Positions 1-9,214 of a stretch of 44,336 nt of DNA are shown here, in pieces (the first letter of the stretch is position 1; every line of letters begins with the position of its first letter). Position numbers and translations under genes: made by a program. This DNA is from Acidobacteriaceae bacterium (GTDB lineage Bacteria; Acidobacteriota; Terriglobia; Terriglobales; Acidobacteriaceae): assembly GCA_003134435.1 (NCBI GenBank), contig PLBE01000189.1, forward strand, positions 49,299 through 93,634. The letters run 5' to 3'. A model generated the notes under the pieces. That model had not been told where the DNA came from. It did no database searches and saw only the letters and a list, made by a program, of their open reading frames with translations.

Positions 1-585
1 GTCCCGCGGACCTAGCTGAAGTTTGCGGCAGATGCGATCGAATTTCTGGACCTGCGCTTTCTCCAGAGTGTCTTCCGCAGCGTCGCAATTTCCAAAATAA
101 GCGCAGGAATAGGCCAGGCTGCGATCCAGGAAAAGGCGGTAAAAGTCGTTGCCCAGATCGTAGTGATACGCGATATTACGGCGGCTGCCGGACTGCGTAT
201 TACGGTGGCGCCGGTGCTCGACCAAGTCGGCCATCCGGCGAAACAGGGTGAACAAGCGGTTGCTATTCTCGAGTTGATTCAGATTGCGCACCGCTAACCG
301 GACCACCGCAACTAGATCTGGCGTGGACCACTCGCCGTCCATGTAGGCTTCCCCAACGCCGATGTCCCCCGCCAACAATGCGCGCTGGAAGAACCGGTCG
401 TCATGAACGGCCACCACGGCGCACAACGAGTCTTCCATCTGACCCGCAGTGAACTGGCCGGTGTGGGACTCGCCAAAGCTGTACGTAGCCTCTGGACAGA
501 CCAAGTCCAAACGGCCGCCCCGCAGGCCCGACAAAGTTTTCAGGAAGATACGCTTGGCCACACTGGTCGCTATTCCGCTCGCCAT
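1..585 (-). CDS. Cyclopropane-fatty-acyl-phospholipid synthase-like methyltransferase (3' end outside window)
   Basis: The frame is open from the ATG at 585 to the window edge, giving the N-terminal 195 residues; the SAM-binding core lies outside. Visible hallmarks of the CFA synthase family are a GVGEAYMDGEW block and the YHYDLGNDFYRLFLD and LAYSCAYF blocks, which form the start of the lipid-binding and catalytic region. CFA-family enzymes transfer a methylene or methyl group from SAM to the double bond of unsaturated acyl chains in membrane phospholipids. The gene overlaps the end of the DUF1365 gene by 16 bases, so it is the fourth gene of a tightly coupled leftward operon with a desaturase and an FAD oxidase. 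Substrate and product cannot be told from the fragment; cyclopropane, methyl-branched and furan-precursor fatty acids are all possible. Confidence 0.9.
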   Translation of the reverse strand, partial: MASGIATSVAKRIFLKTLSGLRGGRLDLVCPEATYSFGESHTGQFTAGQMEDSLCAVVAVHDDRFFQRALLAGDIGVGEAYMDGEWSTPDLVAVVRLAVRNLNQLENSNRLFTLFRRMADLVEHRRHRNTQSGSRRNIAYHYDLGNDFYRLFLDRSLAYSCAYFGNCDAAEDTLEKAQVQKFDRICRKLQLGPRD

Positions 586-1367
586 GAGGCCCCCAGATGC
601 CTGGTTGGCGCTGCCTGGAAATGACCCGCGCCGGGATGCGAAACCACTGGCACCCGCTTGAATAACAGGCGCAACGCCTGCCAATGGATGGCGGTGATCA
701 CTTTCGCGGTCATCCATGGAAAGCGAGCCAGTTCGCGGTGCAACGCGGCCCGAGTCCATTCCCGACGCTCCATTTTCAAGGTTGAATCGAAGATCGCATG
801 GCCATTCTCATGACTGACGCACTGCGCAATCAGGCGTTCGCCGGGAGGCGTAAATGTCCATTCGTATTCGTGTCCCAGTTGCATGAAGGGCGAAACGTGA
901 AACGTCTTCTGGAAGCGGTACTTCCTGCTCTCTCCTGCAGGATACTCGACGTTTGACGTCAACCAATAATTTTCCGTCTCCCCAAAAGTGTTGTTCACTT
1001 CGGCCATGACCATCTCGAATCCGCCGTCACTTCCGGAGCAGTAAAAAAATGACACTGGGTTGAAGTTGTATCCCAGATAGCGGAGGTGGGTGAGCAGAAA
1101 AATCCGTCCCGACGGAAGCGCGACGCCCTTCGCATGAGCATCGTGCAGCAATCTTGCGCGAAGCATTTTCGTCGGATCGCCGAAATGGTCCCGCTCCTGG
1201 TAAGACACCCAATTCCGGCGGTTGTATCCGGCCAGCGGAGACACCTTCATCAACTCCGGCAACTGGTCGATGTCCAGGAATACCATGAACAGCGGGTAAG
1301 TAAACTCGTGGCGGGCAGGACTGAACCTGCGATGACGCAATGTGCCGGTATAGATTCCCGATTCCAT
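570..1367 (-). CDS. DUF1365 family protein
   Basis: A 265-residue protein of the DUF1365 family, with the typical N-terminal block (GTLRHRRFSPARHEFTY), NPVSFFYC near the middle and EVNNTFGE. No catalytic role is established for the family that I can name. It is repeatedly found between an FAD amine-oxidase-like gene and a CFA-synthase-like gene, and that is the case here. The ATG overlaps the stop of the upstream oxidase gene as ATGA, which fixes the start. The C-terminus overlaps the start of the CFA-like gene by 16 bases. Translational coupling on both sides suggests the products are needed together, probably on the same lipid substrate. There is no signal peptide; the family assignment is firm and the function is open. 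Confidence 0.9.
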   Translation of the reverse strand: MESGIYTGTLRHRRFSPARHEFTYPLFMVFLDIDQLPELMKVSPLAGYNRRNWVSYQERDHFGDPTKMLRARLLHDAHAKGVALPSGRIFLLTHLRYLGYNFNPVSFFYCSGSDGGFEMVMAEVNNTFGETENYWLTSNVEYPAGESRKYRFQKTFHVSPFMQLGHEYEWTFTPPGERLIAQCVSHENGHAIFDSTLKMERREWTRAALHRELARFPWMTAKVITAIHWQALRLLFKRVPVVSHPGAGHFQAAPTRHLGASWRAE

Positions 1368-2674
1368 CAGGCCACCACTCTGCAGTTTGATTTCGAGGCC
1401 GAACCCGAAGCCCGCTCCCTAGCCTGTCCCCAGCATACGCCCAGCTCTTCCGCTACCCGAATCGCGGAGTTCAGGCCGTCTTCGTGGAATCCGTAGAACC
1501 AGTATGCGCCGCAAAAGTGCGTCCGGTTGTGGCCGCTGATCTCGGGCCATCGCGCCTGGGCGCGCACCGCGTCCAAAGTATAGAGAGGATGGAAGTAGGT
1601 CATCTCGCGGAGAATGCTACGGGTGTCCACCGAAAGCGTGTCGTTGAGCGTCACACAATAGTCTTCCCGCGTGGGCAGGCTCTGCAAGCGGTTCATGTGA
1701 TACGTCAGGGTAGCGGCGCGCCGTTCGGTGCCGAGGTGATAATTCCAGGATGCGCGCGCCCCAGGCCGCCGGGGCAGGAGGCGCGAATCGTTATGCAGCA
1801 CGGTCTCATTGCGGCTGGTACGAAAATTGTTCAGAATTTGCCGCTCTGGGGGCGTAGGCTCGACGAGCAGTTGCAGGGCTTGCAGGGCGTGGCAGGCGAG
1901 TACCACCTCGTCAAAATATTCTGACGGACGGTCCTCAAAACCAATCTTCACACCTGCTGGTGTCCGGATCACGCCATCAATTTTTGCCCCCAAGCGGATC
2001 CTTTCTCGATAAGGCGCGGTCAGCGGGGGAATGTAGGAACTACTGCCGCCCTGCAGCACATACCACTGCGGCTGCGTGGTTAGTCCCAGCAGCCCGTGAT
2101 TTTCGAGAAAACGAATCAAGGTAAAGGCCGGAAAGTCTTCAATTTCCTCGGGCGAAGTGGACCATACCGCCGCCGCCATGGGATGAAGATAGTAGCGTGT
2201 AAAGTCTCCCTGAAACCGATGGGCGCGAAGATAGTCGCCCAACGTGACGCCAGCGTTGGCCGGATCCTGGAGCAACTTGCGGGCTTCCCGATTAAAGCGC
2301 ACGATCTCGGCGAGGAAGCGGTAGTGTCCCAGGCGATACAGATTGCGACGGCCGGCGAAGAAGCCCGTCAGTCCGCGGCTGCTGTATTCAAATCCGGTCT
2401 GGCGGCAGGAGACGCCGAACGACATGTCACTGGCCTGCCGCGCGACGCCCAAACTGCGGAATAGCCGGACAAGGTTCGGATAAGTACGGTCGTTATGCAC
2501 GATAAAGCCAGTATCAATGGGAAGCGGCCCGCAACTGGTTTCAATCTGGTGTGTGTGTGTATGCCCGCCGATGCGGTTCTCTTTCTCGAACAGCCACACT
2601 TCGTGATTTCGGCTGAGCAGGTAGGCCGCAGACATGCCTGAAATTCCCGCGCCGATGACTGCGATTCGGCTCAT
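1367..2674 (-). CDS. FAD-dependent amine-oxidase-like (NAD(P)-binding Rossmann) oxidoreductase
   Basis: A 435-residue flavoprotein. Residues 4-13 carry the dinucleotide-binding GxGxxG (GAGISG at 8-13), followed by the ribose-binding Glu30 and the RIGGH motif (34-38) typical of phytoene-desaturase and amine-oxidase folds. The ATG at 2674 is chosen because it overlaps the desaturase stop as ATGA and has a strong GGAGGCGGG Shine-Dalgarno just upstream; the frame is open further upstream, but that part lies inside the desaturase gene. Together with DUF1365 and the CFA-like methyltransferase it forms a three-gene cassette known from many bacteria as part of light- or singlet-oxygen-inducible regulons. 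It probably oxidises or desaturates a fatty-acyl substrate at the membrane; the substrate is an inference. Confidence 0.88.
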   Translation of the reverse strand: MSRIAVIGAGISGMSAAYLLSRNHEVWLFEKENRIGGHTHTHQIETSCGPLPIDTGFIVHNDRTYPNLVRLFRSLGVARQASDMSFGVSCRQTGFEYSSRGLTGFFAGRRNLYRLGHYRFLAEIVRFNREARKLLQDPANAGVTLGDYLRAHRFQGDFTRYYLHPMAAAVWSTSPEEIEDFPAFTLIRFLENHGLLGLTTQPQWYVLQGGSSSYIPPLTAPYRERIRLGAKIDGVIRTPAGVKIGFEDRPSEYFDEVVLACHALQALQLLVEPTPPERQILNNFRTSRNETVLHNDSRLLPRRPGARASWNYHLGTERRAATLTYHMNRLQSLPTREDYCVTLNDTLSVDTRSILREMTYFHPLYTLDAVRAQARWPEISGHNRTHFCGAYWFYGFHEDGLNSAIRVAEELGVCWGQARERASGSASKSNCRVVA

Positions 2675-3486
2675 CCCGCCTCCGAAAGAGGCAGGCGGAT
2701 TCCACGCAATTCTTTTGCAACTCCGAGCCAGCTCAGCATTTTCAACGCGTAGAAAGTAATATCCACTTCCCACCAGCGAATTCCCTGCTGGCAGGCATAC
2801 ATGAACTTGTGATGATTGTTGTGCCAGCCTTCCCCCAGAGTGATAAGGGCCAATACAAAATTGTTGCGGCTGTCGTCTGGTGTATCGAATCGCCGCGATC
2901 CCCAAAGGTGCGCCACGGAGTTGATGGTGAACGTCCCGTGGAACAGCAGAACCGTCGAAGCCACGAAGCCCCAGGCGAAAGCTCCCCACCCGCCCAGCCA
3001 CAGCATGAATGCTCCCAAAACGATAGGCGGCAATAGATAATGCTTGTCCAGCCAGCGCAGTTCTGGATACTTACTGAAGTCCTTGATCAGTCTGGGATCG
3101 TAACCATCGTAGTCATTGGACAATACCCATCCGACGTGGGCCCACCAGAAACCGCGCTGCCCGGGAGAGTGTATATCGCGCTCCCCGTCGGCATGCTGAT
3201 GATGAACGCGATGGTGCGCCGCCCACCACAGGATGCCCTTCTGCCCGGACGTTTCCGCGAGAAAGGCCATCAGGAACTGCCACCCGCGCGCCAGTTTGTA
3301 GGTGCGGTGGCTGAAATAGCGGTGATATCCGGCGGTAATGCCAAACATGCGTACCGAGTACGAGAGCAGCATGAGGCCCACCCACGACCAGCGGAACGGA
3401 ACGAACAACAGGCCCAAGCATCCCCCATGAAGCACGAGGAAAGGGATTACCGTCCCGAAACTGTAGTTCTTGAATCTCTTGGACAC
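2671..3486 (-). CDS. Membrane fatty acyl desaturase (delta-9 type)
   Basis: A di-iron membrane desaturase of 271 residues. All three histidine boxes are present: HRYFSH (55-60), HRVHH (92-96) and HNNHH (222-226), in the order and spacing of stearoyl-CoA/acyl-lipid delta-9 desaturases, with hydrophobic pairs between them. The frame is open up to an ATG at 3603, but that ATG lies upstream of a good predicted promoter (TTGACG, 17 bases, TATAAG at 3591-3563), has no ribosome site, and would add a non-homologous tail. The GTG at 3486 gives the family's usual start, although its ribosome site is also weak. First gene of the leftward operon; it would supply the double bond on which the CFA-like enzyme acts. 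Expression is probably controlled by the divergently encoded B12 regulator. Confidence 0.88.
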   Translation of the reverse strand: MSKRFKNYSFGTVIPFLVLHGGCLGLLFVPFRWSWVGLMLLSYSVRMFGITAGYHRYFSHRTYKLARGWQFLMAFLAETSGQKGILWWAAHHRVHHQHADGERDIHSPGQRGFWWAHVGWVLSNDYDGYDPRLIKDFSKYPELRWLDKHYLLPPIVLGAFMLWLGGWGAFAWGFVASTVLLFHGTFTINSVAHLWGSRRFDTPDDSRNNFVLALITLGEGWHNNHHKFMYACQQGIRWWEVDITFYALKMLSWLGVAKELRGIRLPLSEAG

Positions 3487-3562
3487 GTTGGATCGCTGAC
3501 GCTTTCTTGCTCCGACAAAGTCAGTACGCTCTCGGGCGGCGCGCTGGATTGCCCCTAAATCT

Positions 3563-3591
3563 CTTATACCGTCAGATGTCAATAGCGTCAA
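3563..3591 (-). promoter_or_regulatory. Promoter of the desaturase operon
   Basis: On the minus strand TTGACG (complement of 3586-3591) and TATAAG (complement of 3563-3568) are separated by exactly 17 bases. Transcription would start near 3556, about 70 bases before the GTG at 3486. The -35 element is embedded in the left arm of the inverted repeat at 3587-3617, so an operator-bound protein would block it. Confidence 0.65.
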
Positions 3592-3635
3592 GCATTTGTC
3601 CATGACAAGTGCTTGACATACTCCAAAGCACTTGT
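3587..3635. promoter_or_regulatory. Operator: nested inverted repeats between divergent promoters
   Basis: Two overlapping dyads share one arm. The first has 14-base arms at 3587-3600 and 3604-3617 around a CAT centre, with one mismatch. The second has perfect 10-base arms ACAAGTGCTT (3605-3614) and AAGCACTTGT (3626-3635). The arms contain CTTGAC, so both -35 boxes lie within the dyad. LitR/CarH-type regulators are known to bind sites overlapping -35 elements as AdoB12 tetramers in the dark; this is the natural target for the regulator encoded at 3653-4549. Confidence 0.72.
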
Positions 3636-3641
3636 TACTAT
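3613..3641 (+). promoter_or_regulatory. Promoter of the regulator-photolyase operon
   Basis: TTGACA (3613-3618) and TACTAT (3636-3641) are 17 bases apart, close to the sigma-70 consensus. The predicted start near 3648-3649 lies only 4-5 bases before the ATG at 3653, so the regulator mRNA may be leaderless. The -35 box lies in the right arm of the operator dyad. Confidence 0.65.
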
Positions 3642-3652
3642 CTGTGGTGCCA

Positions 3653-4549
3653 ATGTCAGCCTCCTATCCGATTGGCGCCGTCACCAAACTCACTGGACTC
3701 CCGCTGGACACGCTGCGCGCCTGGGAGCGACGTTATGGGGCGGTGGTGCCGGCACGCTCCCCCCGGGGGCGACTCTATTCCGAGGATCAGGTCAAGCGAC
3801 TGATCCTGCTGCGGCAGGTGGTCGAACAGGGCCATGCCATCGGGCAAATCGCGGCAATCAAGGACCGCGAACTGCGCGCGCTGCTGGAAAAGAACGCTTC
3901 CATGGCGCTGACGGCTTCCGACGAAATGCTGGTGCCGGTTTTGCGCGCCCTCGAACGCTTCGATTATTCCGCGACCGATCGCGAGATTAACCGACTGGCT
4001 GCCTCCATTGCCAATCCCAGGGACTTTGTTCATCAAGCCGCGCTCCCTCTGATGCGTACCATCGGCCAGCGCTGGCATGACGGCAAATGCAGCATTGTGC
4101 AGGAGCACATCCTGACTCACCATCTGAGCGCCCTGCTGTCATCCTTGGTGCGCACCTATTCGCGGTCGAATTCGTCGGGCCGCGTTCTACTTGCTACCGT
4201 GAGCGGCGAACGCCATGAGTTCCCTATCCTGGCCGCCGCGATGCTCGTGGCTGCGGGTGGACTGGACGTGATTTACGTGGGATCCGATCTGCCGGCGGCC
4301 GACATTGTCCTGGCCGCCCGCAGGACAGACGCGATGGTGGTTTTGCTCAGTCAGTCAATGGCACCGGGTACCGGGGCTTTGGAGAGCTGGGCCCATATCG
4401 CTCGCAAACTGCCTCGCGGCACCGCTTTATGGCTGGGCGGCCCGCCAGAATTGGATCTGCATCAGGCAACCGCAGGCTCTCTATGGTTGGTTTTGAATGA
4501 CTTCTCAGCGCTGGAGCACCAACTAACCGCGATGGGAGGAAGGTACTAG
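3653..4549 (+). CDS. litR: MerR-family B12-binding transcriptional regulator (LitR/CarH-type photoreceptor)
   Basis: A 298-residue protein with a MerR winged-helix N-terminus (GAVTKLTGLPLDTLRAWERR, residues 8-27), a helical-bundle middle and a C-terminal cobalamin Rossmann domain. It carries the residues that define adenosylcobalamin photoreceptors: Trp141-His142, then Glu151-His152 (the W-x9-EH signature, with the adjacent His that binds cobalt after illumination in Thermus CarH), and E186-R-H188 as lower cobalt ligand. The E-x-H-x2-G motif ends in Pro191 instead of Gly. In the dark the AdoB12-bound tetramer should repress; light breaks the Co-C bond and releases DNA. The ATG at 3653 is used because an upstream TTG at 3632 lies inside the promoter. 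It is divergent from the desaturase operon and first in the operon ending with photolyase. Confidence 0.9.
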   Translation: MSASYPIGAVTKLTGLPLDTLRAWERRYGAVVPARSPRGRLYSEDQVKRLILLRQVVEQGHAIGQIAAIKDRELRALLEKNASMALTASDEMLVPVLRALERFDYSATDREINRLAASIANPRDFVHQAALPLMRTIGQRWHDGKCSIVQEHILTHHLSALLSSLVRTYSRSNSSGRVLLATVSGERHEFPILAAAMLVAAGGLDVIYVGSDLPAADIVLAARRTDAMVVLLSQSMAPGTGALESWAHIARKLPRGTALWLGGPPELDLHQATAGSLWLVLNDFSALEHQLTAMGGRY

Positions 4550-4617
4550 CGGCGGCGTTCGGCAATCCGCAGGGCTGCCCATACTCGTACTTCACGGTTG
4601 CTGTAGAAATATAGATT

Positions 4618-4956
4618 ATGAGGACGCTTTTGAAGGTTACCTTCGCTGCCATTTTCATTTGGATGATCGGTATGACCGCTTACGTCAGTTGGCACAAGTC
4701 GATCATGCTGGCGGGATCGGAATTCAGCTGGGTGAGCAGTCCGTGGGCGGTAGCGACGCTCTTCGACGCTTACTGCGGGTTTTTGACATTTTTTGTCTGG
4801 GTATGCTTCAAAGAGCGCACCTGGGCGGCGAAAGCAATTTGGTTTGTGCTCATCATGGGACTGGGAAACATCGCCATGTCGGGATACGTCCTAGTGCAGC
4901 TTTTCAAACTTCAGCCGGAAGAACCGCTGGCAGACTTGTTGATCAAACGTGCGTGA
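4618..4956 (+). CDS. DUF1475-like small integral membrane protein
   Basis: A 112-residue protein with three or four hydrophobic segments (about 6-25, 40-60, 70-95). The SPWAVATLFDAYCGFLTFF block and the KERTWAAKAIWFV loop resemble the DUF1475 family. No enzymatic motif is seen. It starts 68 bases after the regulator gene and is followed 38 bases later by another membrane protein gene, so it is probably co-transcribed in the light-controlled operon. A membrane-resident accessory role in lipid remodelling is inferred from context only; family assignment is moderately sure. Confidence 0.75.
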   Translation: MRTLLKVTFAAIFIWMIGMTAYVSWHKSIMLAGSEFSWVSSPWAVATLFDAYCGFLTFFVWVCFKERTWAAKAIWFVLIMGLGNIAMSGYVLVQLFKLQPEEPLADLLIKRA

Positions 4957-4994
4957 TGAGGCGTGCGTCTGTAATCGAGGCCACCTGATTTTTT

Positions 4995-5783
4995 ATGCTA
5001 TCCGCAATTCTCCACCTCGTTTTGACCGGAGCCGCGCTGGTGGGTTCGATGATGTTCCTGTTGTGGCTGATCCACCTGGGCATACGGAACGCGAGCGTTG
5101 TAGATCCTGGCTGGGCGTTCGGTATTCCCCTGCTGGCTGTGGTCTATGCAGTGATGGGTCCCGGCTATTTCTGGCGCAGGTGGCTGCTGGCGGGGATGGC
5201 GGCAATCTGGGGAGTCCGGTTGGGGACTTACCTCTTGTTGCGTATGGTGGGCAAGCCCGAGGAGGGACGCTATCAGGAATTGCGCCGCCAATGGCAACAT
5301 CACTTGGCTTTGAGGTTTCTCGCCTTCTTCGAATTTCAGGCCTTGCTGGATTTATTGCTGTCGCTTCCTTTTTTGCTGGCCGCGCTGAATCCAAGAACGA
5401 CGTTGTCGCTGCTGGAATATGCCGGCTTTGCGCTGTGGCTGGTGGCGCTGGCTGGAGAAGCGGTCGCGGATGGTCAGCTAGCGGCTTTCAAGCGCGATTC
5501 ATCCTCCCATGGACAAGTCTGCCAGCGCGGGCTGTGGAACTACTCGCGTCATCCAAATTATTTCTTCGAATGGCTCATCTGGCTGGCTTGGGCGCTATTT
5601 GCTTTGGCTTCGCCTTATGGTTGGATGGCATTGGTTTGCCCGGTACTCATGTTCTATTTCCTCTTCCGGGTGACGGGCATTCCGGCAACCGAAGCGCAGG
5701 CACTGCGCAGTAAGGGCGAGGCCTATCGACGATACCAGCAGACCACCAGCGCCTTTGTCCCGTGGTTCAAGCATGCGACTTAA
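4995..5783 (+). CDS. DUF1295 family integral membrane protein (steroid 5-alpha-reductase/ICMT-like)
   Basis: A 262-residue multi-spanning protein. The C-terminal half carries the hallmark of DUF1295: GLWNYSRHPNYFFEWLIW, then a GIPATEAQALRSKGEAYRRY block ending in SAFVPWF, as in steroid 5-alpha-reductase-like and isoprenylcysteine-methyltransferase-like membrane enzymes. The N-terminal half has WAFGIPLLAV and RWLLAGMAAIWGVRLGTYLL. Members are commonly next to CFA synthase genes and are suspected to act as reductases or methyltransferases on lipids, but no reaction is proven. The next gene follows within 16 bases. Confidence 0.88.
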   Translation: MLSAILHLVLTGAALVGSMMFLLWLIHLGIRNASVVDPGWAFGIPLLAVVYAVMGPGYFWRRWLLAGMAAIWGVRLGTYLLLRMVGKPEEGRYQELRRQWQHHLALRFLAFFEFQALLDLLLSLPFLLAALNPRTTLSLLEYAGFALWLVALAGEAVADGQLAAFKRDSSSHGQVCQRGLWNYSRHPNYFFEWLIWLAWALFALASPYGWMALVCPVLMFYFLFRVTGIPATEAQALRSKGEAYRRYQQTTSAFVPWFKHAT

Positions 5784-5799
5784 GGAGCGGGAGTCAGGG

Positions 5800-6369
5800 A
5801 TGAAGTTGTTTGTCTGGACGGTCGCAATGCTCGGGGCCACATTTTTCGTGATCTTGGGGGGAGTTATCGCTTTGGCAACGCCAGTAGCATCTTCATGGGA
5901 CACAGCGCCAGTGCGATTCCCCCACGTACAAGGTTCCAACCTCGAGAAACAGGATTTCAACCTGCCCTCTGATTTCCAGGGGCAGCACAACTTGCTGTTG
6001 GTGGCTTTTGAACGCGAGCAGCAGAAGGACGTCGATACCTGGCTCAAGGAAATGAAACGCTTTGAAGAGGTCGATCCGGGCTTTTACTACTATGAACTGC
6101 CGACGATCGAAAGGCCCAACACTCTGATGCGCTGGTTCATTGACAGCGGGATGCGGCGGGGCATACCGGATCGCAAAGCACGCGAGCGCACGATTACGTT
6201 GTACCTGGATAAAAACCAATTTTGCGCCGCCTTGCAGATCGTCGAGCAGAAGAGAATCTATGAATTTCTGGTAGATCGCAGCGGCAATGTACTGTGGCGT
6301 TCTGAAGGAGTGTTCGATGAGACCAAGGGCGTGAGTTTGCAACGCGCCCTCGGAGAACATCGGCCATAG
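5800..6369 (+). CDS. Membrane-anchored thioredoxin-fold-like protein, resembles ATP10 family
   Basis: A protein of 189 residues starting with a single hydrophobic segment (about 4-25), which may anchor it or be cleaved, followed by a soluble domain. Blocks such as [31 protein letters not shown] and [17 protein letters not shown] match the pattern of ATP10/AhpC-like thioredoxin-fold domains, but no CxxC pair is present. The ATG at 5800 follows a GGGAG ribosome site; earlier in-frame starts (5755, 5773) overlap the upstream gene. It sits between the DUF1295 and methyltransferase genes in the same orientation. Function is unknown; a folding or assembly role for a membrane enzyme is a guess from the fold. 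Confidence 0.72.
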
Positions 6370-6421: not shown

Positions 6422-7543
6422 ATGAGAAGTTTTCTGACGATGAGCGAGACTCGCGGACGAATGGTAGACGCGCTTTCACGTGGCGCTGCGAAAGAGGTTC
6501 CATTCGCTTTGCTCGAACGCGATTTGATCCCTGATCACATCATCCGCATCGGCATTCGGCGTTTGCTGGTTCAGCGTTTGCGCGAAGAGGACAAGTGCTC
6601 TCCGGAGCGGCAACAGGAGCACTTGATGCGCTTCATCGATCAACTGAGGCGGGGACCGGTTGCAGTCGAAACCGGGGCTGCCAACGCGCAGCATTACGAA
6701 GTCCCGGCCCGCTTCTTTGAATTAGCGTTAGGCAAGCACTTGAAATACAGTTCCGGGCTGTGGCTGGAAGGAACCAGCACGCTGGATGAAGCCGAAGAGG
6801 CGATGCTCGCGCTTACCACAGAACGCGCCGGCCTGACTGACGGGCAACGGGTTCTGGAACTCGGGTGCGGATGGGGTTCGCTTTCCCTGTACATCGCCGA
6901 GCGCTTTCCCCGCAGTGAAATTGTGAGTGTCTCGAATTCCGCCTCGCAGAAACAATTCATCGACGCTCAAGCCTCGACTCGCGGTCTGCGCAACCTGCGC
7001 GTCATCACGGCGGATATGAACACTTTTGAAGCGCCCGGCAAATTTGACCGCGCGGTTTCAGTGGAGATGTTTGAGCACATGCGCAACTACGAAGTGCTGC
7101 TGGCGCGGATCAGTACATGGATGCAGCCCGAGGGCAGTCTGTTCGTTCACATCTTCAACCATCACCGCTTCGCGTATCCCTTTGAGGTTCGGGACGACAG
7201 CGACTGGATGGCGCAGCATTTTTTCACCGGCGGCATCATGCCGAGCGACGATCTCCTCCTCTATTTTCAGCGCGATTTGCGGCTGCAAAATCACTGGCAA
7301 GTGAGCGGCGTGCACTACCAGAAGACGGCGGAGGCATGGCTGCGAAATATCGATGCTCATCGCGGAAACATCCTTGATCTCTTTACTGGCGCGTATGCCC
7401 ACGGGCTCTCGGGCCGGGAGGCACGATCGGAAGCTTTGCGCTGGTTGGTTCGGTGGCGGGTCTTTTTCATGGCGTGCGCCGAGCTCTTCGGATACCGGAA
7501 GGGACGGGAGTGGATGGTTTCCCACTACTTGTTCAGCAAATGA
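6422..7543 (+). CDS. Second CFA-synthase-family SAM-dependent methyltransferase
   Basis: A 373-residue class I methyltransferase of COG2230. [15 protein letters not shown] (90-104) followed by LKYSSGLW, then SAM motif I ELGCGWG (146-152), [12 protein letters not shown], a VEMFEHM acidic block and [10 protein letters not shown]. This set is closer to the short CFA-like/coclaurine-N-methyltransferase-like branch than to classic CFA synthase, and it lacks the GVGEAYMDG N-domain seen in the protein at 1-585. It may methylate unsaturated acyl chains or a small amphipathic substrate. AAGG lies about 9 bases before the ATG at 6422; ATG codons at 6440 and 6461 are alternatives. Fifth gene of the regulator operon. 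Confidence 0.88.
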
Positions 7544-7610
7544 GTTTACTCAGGCATGCGGCACACCGGGTAGTCCGCGTAGACAACAGACTTCGCCAAC
7601 GAGGTGGCCA

Positions 7611-7838
7611 ATGGACGCAGAGACTTTCATTTCCGACTCCAGAACGAAGATCGCCGTCGAACGCCGCGTAGAGTTGTTTCTGGTTCTCACGGGCCAGATG
7701 GCATTGCTGGACAGCCTGCTAAGAACCGCCCGAGAGCGTCGCGGCGTGACCGACTGTGGAGTCCGTTTTGCCGACATGAAAACCGAAGAGCTCGATCACA
7801 TCTCCCAGCCTTTTATTACGCAAACGTGGACGACCTAA
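7611..7838 (+). CDS. Small conserved protein of unknown function (paralogue A)
   Basis: A 75-residue, charged, probably helical soluble protein. A GAGGTGG ribosome site stands four bases before the ATG. It overlaps the photolyase start by 13 bases, indicating coupling. I recognise no family, but it is clearly related to the 67-residue protein at 35449-35652: the core ERRVELFLVLTGQMALLDSL followed by TARERR aligns with DRRIELILDLTRRLDLLDDL plus TARARR, about 19 identical positions over 40. The ten-base leader CAACGAGGTG is also shared by the two genes. The R/E/L/D heptad-like pattern suggests a helical hairpin or coiled coil. Confidence 0.8.
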   Translation: MDAETFISDSRTKIAVERRVELFLVLTGQMALLDSLLRTARERRGVTDCGVRFADMKTEELDHISQPFITQTWTT

Positions 7839-9214
7839 ACCGATTCGCTCACGACCTTCCGGCAAAAGACCCCCGCATCACCGTGCGGCGCGCAGGTCCG
7901 CCCGATCCGGCCGGCACTTGCGTTGTCTATTGGATGCAGCGGGCGCAGCGCGGTGTGGATAATCCCGCGCTGGACGTGGCCGTCGAGGCAGCTAACGAAC
8001 TGGGGAGACCGGTAGTCGTATTCTTCGCGCCCGTCCCTTTTTATCCTCATGCCAACCTTCGCCATTACCGCTTTCTCGCCGAGGGGATCTCGGATATTGC
8101 CGAGTCGCTCAAGCGGCGCGGAATCGGCTTCGTGCTCCGTCGATTTCCTGAACACAGCCTGGTCAAGTTCTGCGAGCAGGTGAAGCCCTCGCTGGTGGTA
8201 GGCGACGAGAATCCGATGCGCGAACCGGAATCGTGGCGGCGCAAGGCGGCCAGAAAACTCAACCTCCCGTTCTGGACCGTAGATGCGGACGTGATCGTGC
8301 CCTCGATACTGCTGGAGAAAGCGCAGTACGCGGCGCATATCATCAGGCCGAGGCTGCAGGCACAACTTGGGCGCTTCCTGGTGCCACCGAAAAATGCTCG
8401 AGCAAGAGTGCCGTGGAAAAAGCCAGAAGGCCTGTCGTCGCTCGACCCAAAGTTTGACATCACCCGGGGCTGGCCGCTGGACACCTCGGTCGGTCCGGTG
8501 GCAAGCTTCCGCGGAGGCACGAATGAGGCGCTGCGGCTTCTGCAACACTTCATCGAGCACGGGTTGTCAACGTACGGCACGAACCGCAACCGGCCGGAGT
8601 GCGACGGCACGAGCCGACTTTCGCCGTACCTGCATTTCGGGCATATCGGTCCGCTCACTGTAGCACTGGCTGCGCAAGGCGCCGACGTCCCCAAGGACGA
8701 CAAAGATGCGTTTCTGAATCAGATCATCACGTGGCGCGAGTTAGCCGTGAACCTGGTGCGATTCAATCCCAATTACGACAGTTTCGACTGCGCGGAGCCG
8801 TGGGCCCATCGGACTCTGGCAACGCATTCGAGGGACGAACGCCCGGTGCTCTACAGTGAGTCGCAACTGGAGAATGCCGAAACGCACGACCGGCTTTGGA
8901 ATGCGGCGCAGAGGCAGATGGTGACAACCGGCTGGATGCACAACTATCTGCGCATGTACTGGGCCAAGAAAATTCTGGAATGGAGTCCTTCTCCAGCTCA
9001 GGCTTTCGAAATCGCAGTTCGAATGAACGACAAGTATGAAATGGATGGACGCGACCCTAACGGCTACGCGGGAATTGCCTGGTCCATCGTGGGGAAGTTC
9101 GACCGCCCCTGGTTTGAACGGCCTATCTTCGGGCAGATCCGATATATGTCGGGAGCGAGTACGGGAAAGAAATTCAACAGCAAAGCGTATATCCAGCAGA
9201 ATCTGTTTCAGTAA
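7826..9214 (+). CDS. phr: Class II deoxyribodipyrimidine photolyase
   Basis: A photolyase of about 462 residues. VVYWMQRAQRGVDNPALDVA near the N-terminus and NLRHYRFLAEG are typical class II antenna-domain blocks. The C-terminal FAD domain has TWRELAVNLVRF, SFDCAEPWAHRTLATHSRDE, WMHNYLRMYWAKKILEW, DPNGYAGIAWSIVGKFDRPW and the final IRYMSGAST. The enzyme repairs cyclobutane pyrimidine dimers with FADH- and blue light. The frame is open back to 7604, but that part lies inside the small gene at 7611-7838 in another frame; the GTG at 7826 leaves the usual short N-terminus and a 13-base overlap. Last gene of the regulator operon, which strongly supports light control. Confidence 0.93.
   Translation: MDDLNRFAHDLPAKDPRITVRRAGPPDPAGTCVVYWMQRAQRGVDNPALDVAVEAANELGRPVVVFFAPVPFYPHANLRHYRFLAEGISDIAESLKRRGIGFVLRRFPEHSLVKFCEQVKPSLVVGDENPMREPESWRRKAARKLNLPFWTVDADVIVPSILLEKAQYAAHIIRPRLQAQLGRFLVPPKNARARVPWKKPEGLSSLDPKFDITRGWPLDTSVGPVASFRGGTNEALRLLQHFIEHGLSTYGTNRNRPECDGTSRLSPYLHFGHIGPLTVALAAQGADVPKDDKDAFLNQIITWRELAVNLVRFNPNYDSFDCAEPWAHRTLATHSRDERPVLYSESQLENAETHDRLWNAAQRQMVTTGWMHNYLRMYWAKKILEWSPSPAQAFEIAVRMNDKYEMDGRDPNGYAGIAWSIVGKFDRPWFERPIFGQIRYMSGASTGKKFNSKAYIQQNLFQ

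Follow-up and report, generated by a model that had tools for sequence, protein, structure and literature searches.

The analysis of a 44,336-nt stretch of DNA from Acidobacteriaceae bacterium (assembly GCA_003134435.1, hereafter the window) revealed, between a lipid-gene operon and the operon of a LitR/CarH-type regulator, a compact site whose repeats supply the -35 boxes of two divergent promoters. We consider it probable that this site (3586-3618) is the operator of the regulator encoded at 3653-4549, and that the cobalamin-bound repressor shuts both promoters in the dark and light frees both. The anatomy of the site, its conservation, the register of its repeats and promoters, and its association with litR and with the boundary between the divergent operons are directly supported by the data. 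From homology and gene neighbourhood, we infer that LitR would be the binder, and likewise its repressor role, oligomeric state, cobalamin binding and release by light. The features of the locus are presented in Table 1.

Table 1. Features of the divergent lipid/litR locus in window coordinates.
Feature	Position	Strand	Description
DUF1365 protein	570-1367	-	Domain family containing UfaO of furan fatty acid synthesis
FAD-dependent amine-oxidase-like protein	1367-2674	-	Described in the same broad terms as UfaD: NAD/FAD-binding, phytoene-desaturase-like
Fatty acid desaturase (FA_desaturase)	2671-3486	-	Opens the minus operon; GTG at 3486 is the likely start
Minus promoter, predicted	3563-3591	-	TTGACG (3591-3586), 17 bp, TATAAG (3568-3563); desaturase/UfaD-like/DUF1365 operon
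Operator, predicted	3586-3618		Two head-to-head pairs of 11-bp-spaced TnnACA repeats
Outer minus-strand repeat	3591-3586	-	TTGACG
Inner minus-strand repeat	3602-3597	-	TGGACA
Inner plus-strand repeat	3602-3607	+	ATGACA, imperfect
Outer plus-strand repeat	3613-3618	+	TTGACA
Plus promoter, predicted	3613-3641	+	TTGACA (3613-3618), 17 bp, TACTAT (3636-3641), upstream TG; litR operon
litR/carH-like gene	3653-4549	+	298 aa; MerR HTH, B12-binding_2 (helix bundle), B12-binding (Rossmann)
DUF1475 protein	4618-4956	+	Presumed litR operon
DUF1295 (steroid-reductase-like) protein	4995-5783	+	Presumed litR operon
ORF	5755-6369	+	No Pfam or NCBIfam family match; 66% identical homologue downstream of litR in locus L046
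Cyclopropane-fatty-acid-synthase-like methyltransferase (CMAS)	6422-7543	+
Photolyase	7604-9214	+	Best model TIGR00591 phr2, 451 bits, below the curated cut-off of 550

The outer repeats of the operator coincide with the -35 boxes of the two promoters, while the base pair at 3602 is the centre of the site and is common to both inner repeats. As this base pair is the first position of each inner repeat, the consensus T is possible in only one of them; the centre base is A on the litR strand in 16 of the 17 divergent sites compared (see below), which completes the lipid-side repeat and leaves the inner plus-strand repeat with A for T. The preliminary description had presented the same stretch as a 31-base inverted repeat with one -35 box per arm, and a base-by-base check returned this sequence as it had been given: GTCAAGCATTTGTC / CAT / GACAAGTGCTTGAC at 3587-3600 / 3601-3603 / 3604-3617, with arms of 14 bp each, of which 13 bases are matched. 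Both -35 hexamers extend one base beyond the 31-bp dyad. The promoters, which had been called face-to-face, are both present, but their orientation is back-to-back, i.e., divergent.

In five Markov-shuffled windows, 14-bp dyads with no more than one mismatch and a gap of 0-20 numbered 0, 0, 2, 3 and 2. Since a dyad of equal quality occurs up to three times per shuffled window, the dyad alone proves nothing, and the case needs more than the window. Nor is the site kept as a plain palindrome: over the 17 sites, the main arms match at 8-13 of 14 positions, while the half-sites and their register are retained. The plain palindrome has been replaced by a model of two CarH-type 11-bp repeat pairs, placed head to head and having one base pair in common. 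A second dyad noted earlier (3605-3614/3626-3635) is indeed present, with 10 of 10 bases matched; as a further operator it was rejected because it is unconserved, only 0-4 of its 10 bases matching in the 16 other sites. An RNA element was considered and rejected, as the window gave no Rfam match at gathering thresholds.

The published CarH half-site is an 11-bp TnnACA repeat, nnnnTnnACAn (PMC9304148). Two such repeats are found in tandem on the minus strand of the operator, where the six close relatives have T(G/A)GACA and TTGACA 11 bp apart and the window, with TGGACA and TTGACG, is one base off. As in CarH operators, the -35 box lies within a repeat, here in both outer ones. A single same-strand array was not found: there are two repeats per strand, arranged head-to-head, and the inner plus-strand repeat is imperfect, for which reason the operator was classed as a variant of the CarH operator.

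It is conservation, and not the dyad itself, that raises the observation above chance. The scan of related genomes for the dyad beside litR-like genes, an idea of the preliminary description, was positive for 7 of 397 genomes of the order and, at the level of the phylum, for 28 of 65 litR loci. Within the order, the two-sided site is present in exactly those seven genomes that carry a full-length litR orthologue (E below 1e-100). Three more of the 397 genomes gave weak regulator matches (E 8.8e-12 to 4.2e-11, residues 94-265), two others matched the site pattern with two mismatches and on one strand only, and a reversed control pattern gave 9 matches in 8 genomes. In 61 genomes sampled out to the class, the pattern was found in six, which are the six having the orthologue. 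As the site adjoins litR in most loci, this co-occurrence within the order is partly linkage. Among the seven homologous sites, invariant columns make up 20 of 33 in the operator versus 5 of 122 in the flanks; over the 17 sites, the figures are 15 of 33 versus none of 122. The only flanking columns at least 85% identical over the 17 sites are the A of each -10.

Both promoters are of the sigma-70 type. The promoter scan of 1500-6000 listed one promoter, the plus one, while shuffles averaged 2.0; the minus promoter, whose -10 is without the final T, is absent from the list. In the six close relatives, the minus promoter reads TTGACA-17-TAnnnn. All seven order relatives, the window included, retain both -35 boxes, with TTGACG once, in the window, and have a -10 at 17 bp on each side, with one plus-side exception at 18 bp. 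On the plus side of the 17 divergent sites, TAnnnT lies 17 bp (13 sites) or 18 bp (two sites) from the -35 box; all remaining offsets from 8 to 31 gave none. The minus -35 box has TAnnnn at 17 bp (12 sites) or 18 bp (two sites), with 0-3 sites at other offsets, and the stricter TAnnnT at that spacing in only 2 of 17. The idea of a chance palindrome between two look-alike promoters could draw on the comparable dyads of the shuffled windows and on a promoter scan that finds no more than shuffles do; it is extremely improbable and is refuted by the comparative data, as 17 sites in six families are conserved, with both -35 boxes and a fixed -10 spacing.

In classical MerR promoters, the spacer is 19-20 bp long and the palindrome lies inside this over-long spacer. 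A classical MerR activator, which would bind a palindrome and twist a long promoter spacer, would agree with the MerR-type DNA-binding domain of the regulator and with the presence of a dyad. We regard it as highly improbable, since the spacers are 17 bp (18 in a few sites), the dyad lies over the -35 boxes rather than the spacers, and a simple palindrome would not predict the 11-bp same-strand register. A dyad over the -35 boxes together with spacers of normal length fits occlusion and does not fit MerR-type spacer twisting. Most likely, the regulator represses in the dark by occluding both -35 boxes, is released by light and is autoregulated.

The distance between the plus -10 and the litR ATG is 11 nt in the window and 7-11 nt over the window and its six close relatives, so the litR transcript (window 3641-3653) is probably leaderless or nearly so. 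On the other side, between the -10 and the desaturase start, lies a conserved block at 3522-3553 (CAGTACGC...GGATTGCC), presumed to belong to the 5' leader of the minus transcript, which is largely retained among the aligned relatives.

The distribution of the site in the phylum was analysed with a LitR profile built from six orthologues (E up to 1e-25) in 396 genomes, of which 63 contained LitR, in 70 places. For the site scan, 58 regions that cover 59 of the 69 places outside the window were taken together with two further regions; the 10 of 70 places left out all belong to family f32. The 65 loci analysed are the window, its six close relatives and 58 of these 60 regions. Left out of the 65 were L149, a region with no litR, and L106, in which the litR start is missing; site counts and spacing peaks were the same with and without L106. 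Three loci (L104, L143 and L147) have less than 60 bp of upstream sequence each, and a separate scan of genome contigs gave only two loci.

The composite score gives 15 points for two head-to-head TnnACA pairs. A score of at least 13 was reached in 28 of the 65 litR loci, with the 13-of-15 threshold and the choice of GACA fixed after sites had been seen. The site lies at most 300 bp upstream of litR in 21 of the 28 dyad loci and only elsewhere in the locus in the other seven, where 454-2306 bp separate it from the downstream litR and its left neighbour is an opposed amine-oxidase gene; the next recognised gene to its right is litR in six and DUF1295 in one. Outside the upstream stretches, only two other scores of at least 13 were found in 462,740 positions, both before the second litR copy of L092. 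In 17 cases, drawn from six families of the data set, the site has the litR operon on one side and an opposed lipid-type gene (amine-oxidase or desaturase) on the other. The opposed neighbour of the site is a weak photolyase match in L123, and none was recognised by our queries in the ten other dyad loci. As the sites stay at the lipid/litR boundary even when distant from litR, the operator marks the divergent boundary and not merely the litR start.

The dyad is absent from 37 of the 65 litR loci, some of which show other repeat layouts or none. In the distant LitR loci L080, L081 and L086, three same-strand minus repeats 11 bp apart, with no dyad, are found at most 170 bp upstream of litR. 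Several overlapping repeat pairs precede litR in L092 and L098 (family f35), and L092 carries two litR copies in a row. On one Betaproteobacteria contig with a LitR fragment (L031), a single case, the site was not found, the best score being 10 of 15.

The spacing of the repeats was counted in up to 300 bp upstream of the 65 litR genes, and the composite score was not used for this purpose. Same-strand GACA pairs were found 49 times at 11 bp, 7 times at 22 and 7 times at 42, with 0-5 at other distances between 4 and 45. Pairs of the TGTC..GACA type peaked at 7, 18 and 29 bp, i.e., at 7 + 11k (15, 30 and 16 pairs, respectively), with 5 at 28 and 0-2 elsewhere, and GACA..TGTC pairs gave small peaks only (5 at 13 and 6 at 24). 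When the six close relatives were removed, the remaining 59 regions still gave 39 same-strand pairs at 11 bp and 11, 20 and 10 head-to-head pairs at 7, 18 and 29 bp. The 11-bp spacing is the published register of the CarH half-site, and the window site thus corresponds to two CarH-type repeat pairs facing each other. The 42-bp same-strand spacing also stands out in the spacing table and was noted with the f35 loci L092 and L098.

The tree of the 65 LitR proteins showed that the dyad label changes 8 times, versus a shuffled mean of 21, and none of 500 shuffles was as low; such clustering of the dyad on the LitR tree would follow from relatedness too. One clade of 27 rows (support 99/95), comprising several families, gathers 23 of the 28 dyad rows, and those outside it are L092, L093, L098, L103 and L145.

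The number of copies per genome was determined at up to two mismatches in 18 genomes picked for having the site: 15 have one copy, two have two and one has three. Of the four extra copies, one precedes a paralogous litR (G600) and one the second litR of G741. The other two (G588 and G741; L167 3784-3816 and L168 1127-1159) precede further amine-oxidase/DUF1365/CMAS operons, and no LitR match was found near them on fragments of 3980 and 6000 bp. On their other side, both copies seem, by eye, to be flanked by an opposed reading frame. Regulation of these two operons in trans is possible. In the window's genome, the regulator is predicted to be single-site at the two-mismatch stringency.

The two copies on fragments with no LitR match bear on another explanation, in which a different regulator binds the dyad and litR is a mere passenger of the cassette. 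In addition, with the operator beside litR in most loci, its conservation is not enough to identify the regulator that binds it. This explanation is very unlikely, as the half-site and the 11-bp register are those published for CarH, the register persists upstream of litR in the 59 regions left without the six close relatives, and the dyad tracks one LitR clade, as described above.

The sequence of the regulator was compared with the domain models and signatures of CarH. The MerR-type DNA-binding domain (PF13411, 48.7 bits versus a cut-off of 21.6), the helix-bundle B12 domain (PF02607, 40.2 versus 23) and the Rossmann B12 domain (PF02310, 38.4 versus 32.1) were all identified, and the best matches among solved structures were 3whp, a 'probable transcriptional regulator' (E 2.4e-25), and 5c8d, a CarH chain (E 2.9e-25). 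The CarH signatures are Wx9EH, D/ExHx2G/P-x41-SxT/V-x22-27-GG and RxWERRY (PMC9304148). The regulator has the RxWERRY recognition-helix motif as well as Wx9EH with a His after the Trp; W141, H142, E151 and H152 are invariant in six aligned orthologues. Of the B12 motif, it has ExHxxP, the x41 spacing, S233 and GG with 26 residues between, as in CarH, while the third residue of SxT/V is S, the residue found in all six aligned orthologues. The signature residues are otherwise kept in these orthologues, the first S being G in one. With guessed gene starts and ends, the 28 dyad loci gave Wx9EH in 26, D/ExHxxG/P in 24 and RxWERRY in 21, but the B12 pattern with exact spacing in 6 only; the corresponding numbers for the 37 other loci, with guessed gene starts, were 34, 19, 19 and 12. 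As the exact pattern is found in few loci, the spacing of the B12 motif is not uniform in the wider LitR set. The best NCBIfam match was the CarH equivalog NF052513, with 119.4 bits against a cut-off of 400, and therefore the protein is named CarH/LitR-type and not a CarH orthologue.

The missed NCBIfam cut-off and the SxS in place of SxT/V would also agree with the same operator and regulator responding to a signal other than light on adenosylcobalamin, i.e., a partner protein, oxidative stress or cobalamin supply, with no B12 photochemistry, as for CarA of Myxococcus or class II LitR with its LOV partner. Such B12-independent relatives do exist (class II LitR, PMC9758184; CarA, PMC8156234). 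However, CarA is described as being without the Trp of Wx9EH (PMC9304148) and class II LitR as retaining only the helix bundle (PMC9758184), whereas the regulator and five aligned orthologues retain W, H, E, H and the ExH ligand, and both B12 domains of the regulator are above the cut-off. We therefore consider a signal of this kind unlikely. A CobA/BtuR adenosyltransferase was found in the window's genome, and the organism can thus probably make adenosylcobalamin from cobalamin; a PduO-type enzyme was searched for and not found.

Under the preferred reading, in which a B12-dependent repressor is released by light, the adenosylcobalamin-loaded regulator would occupy the half-sites in the dark as two head-to-tail dimers or one tetramer. 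Binding as two dimers is described for Cystobacter CarH (PMC9304148). The bound regulator would cover both -35 boxes and exclude RNA polymerase from both promoters, its own included (autoregulation). Light, or a lack of adenosylcobalamin, would dissociate the regulator and open both operons, releasing the desaturase/UfaD-like/DUF1365 lipid operon on the minus side, and litR, the CMAS methyltransferase and the photolyase on the plus side.

In Rhodobacter sphaeroides, UfaO (DUF1365), UfaD (NAD/FAD-binding) and UfaM (a methylase) jointly make a furan fatty acid (PMC7380195). DUF1365, FAD oxidoreductase and CMAS-type genes are present at our locus, and their likeness to the Rhodobacter Ufa proteins is by family and description. 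With DUF1365, UfaD-like and CMAS-like genes, the minus operon looks furan-fatty-acid-type, and a furan fatty acid would be its lipid product. The minus operon ends in a CMAS-like gene that overlaps the window's left edge (L166 about 5072-5983) and has undetermined bases in this assembly. Because the photolyase matches only start at residue 103, the true start codon may lie downstream of the one listed for this ORF.

The closest published parallels are the CarH operators of Sorangium cellulosum. One CarH site there overlaps two proposed divergent promoters; its footprint was obtained in the dark, using adenosylcobalamin and a CarH chimera (PMC9304148). With two divergent promoters possibly served by that site, the control of two promoters by one repressor is not a new idea. 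The CarH-type regulator and the 11-bp TnnACA repeats are likewise common to both systems; however, the Sorangium repeats are in tandem on one strand (three direct repeats, or one direct and two imperfect) and the targets are carotenoid genes (PMC9304148), whereas our site consists of two head-to-head pairs whose register is fixed and whose outer arms contain both -35 boxes, its targets being lipid and photolyase genes. The operators of Thermus thermophilus (three tandem repeats) and Bacillus megaterium (four) are similar in the 11-bp repeat, the TnnACA core, the overlap with the -35 (or -10) box and repression, but they are described as same-strand tandem arrays, with no dyad in the sections of the sources covered here (PMC9304148, PMC8156234). 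Inverted as well as TnnACA repeats, one of them with the -35 box, are reported in the CarA/CarH operator of Myxococcus xanthus (about 55 bp), to which CarA binds cooperatively as two dimers; that operator differs in being longer, with five repeats (three full and two partial) in one array at one promoter (PMC9304148).

Light-inducible genes of Pseudomonas, among them phrB and ufaM, are under the control of a class II LitR together with a LOV protein (PMC9758184). The PplR1/PmlR2 operators resemble ours in belonging to the LitR family, in the site over the -35 box and in having phrB, ufaM and an FAD-dependent oxidoreductase nearby, while the consensus, T(G/A)TACA-N12-TGTA(C/T)A, and the pairing of a class II protein with a LOV photoreceptor are different (PMC9758184). 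The ufaM/ufaD/ufaO genes of R. sphaeroides resemble the locus in their DUF1365 (UfaO), NAD/FAD-binding UfaD-like and methyltransferase genes; the fatty acids in that study were followed in chrR mutants, and no CarH-type control was seen in the portions of it covered here (PMC7380195). A head-to-head, base-sharing CarH operator with both -35 boxes as its outer arms was not found in the CarH/LitR operator literature searched, part of which was available in excerpt, the Thermus and Bacillus operators being covered through reviews and citing papers. The same goes for the 7 + 11k register, its spread over one LitR clade of the phylum and the lipid/photolyase targets. No CarH/LitR work in these bacteria was found in the literature searched.

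CarH, the model B12 photoreceptor for green light, also serves as an optogenetic tool. In a wider reading, for and against which the evidence seems to us evenly balanced, the site would be a dyad-symmetric CarH operator of two head-to-head pairs with one base pair in common (TGTC and GACA being 7 bp apart), both -35 boxes would be capped by a two-fold-symmetric complex, and the device would be old in one LitR clade, with light governing both photolyase and a membrane chemistry of the furan-fatty-acid type in much of the phylum. If this is true, a compact 33-bp site kept in six families silences two divergent promoters together and shows how a direct-repeat binder can be turned into a two-way switch. 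It would also offer a ready-made bidirectional light-controlled promoter, and the light control of lipid protection and DNA repair would become testable in these bacteria.
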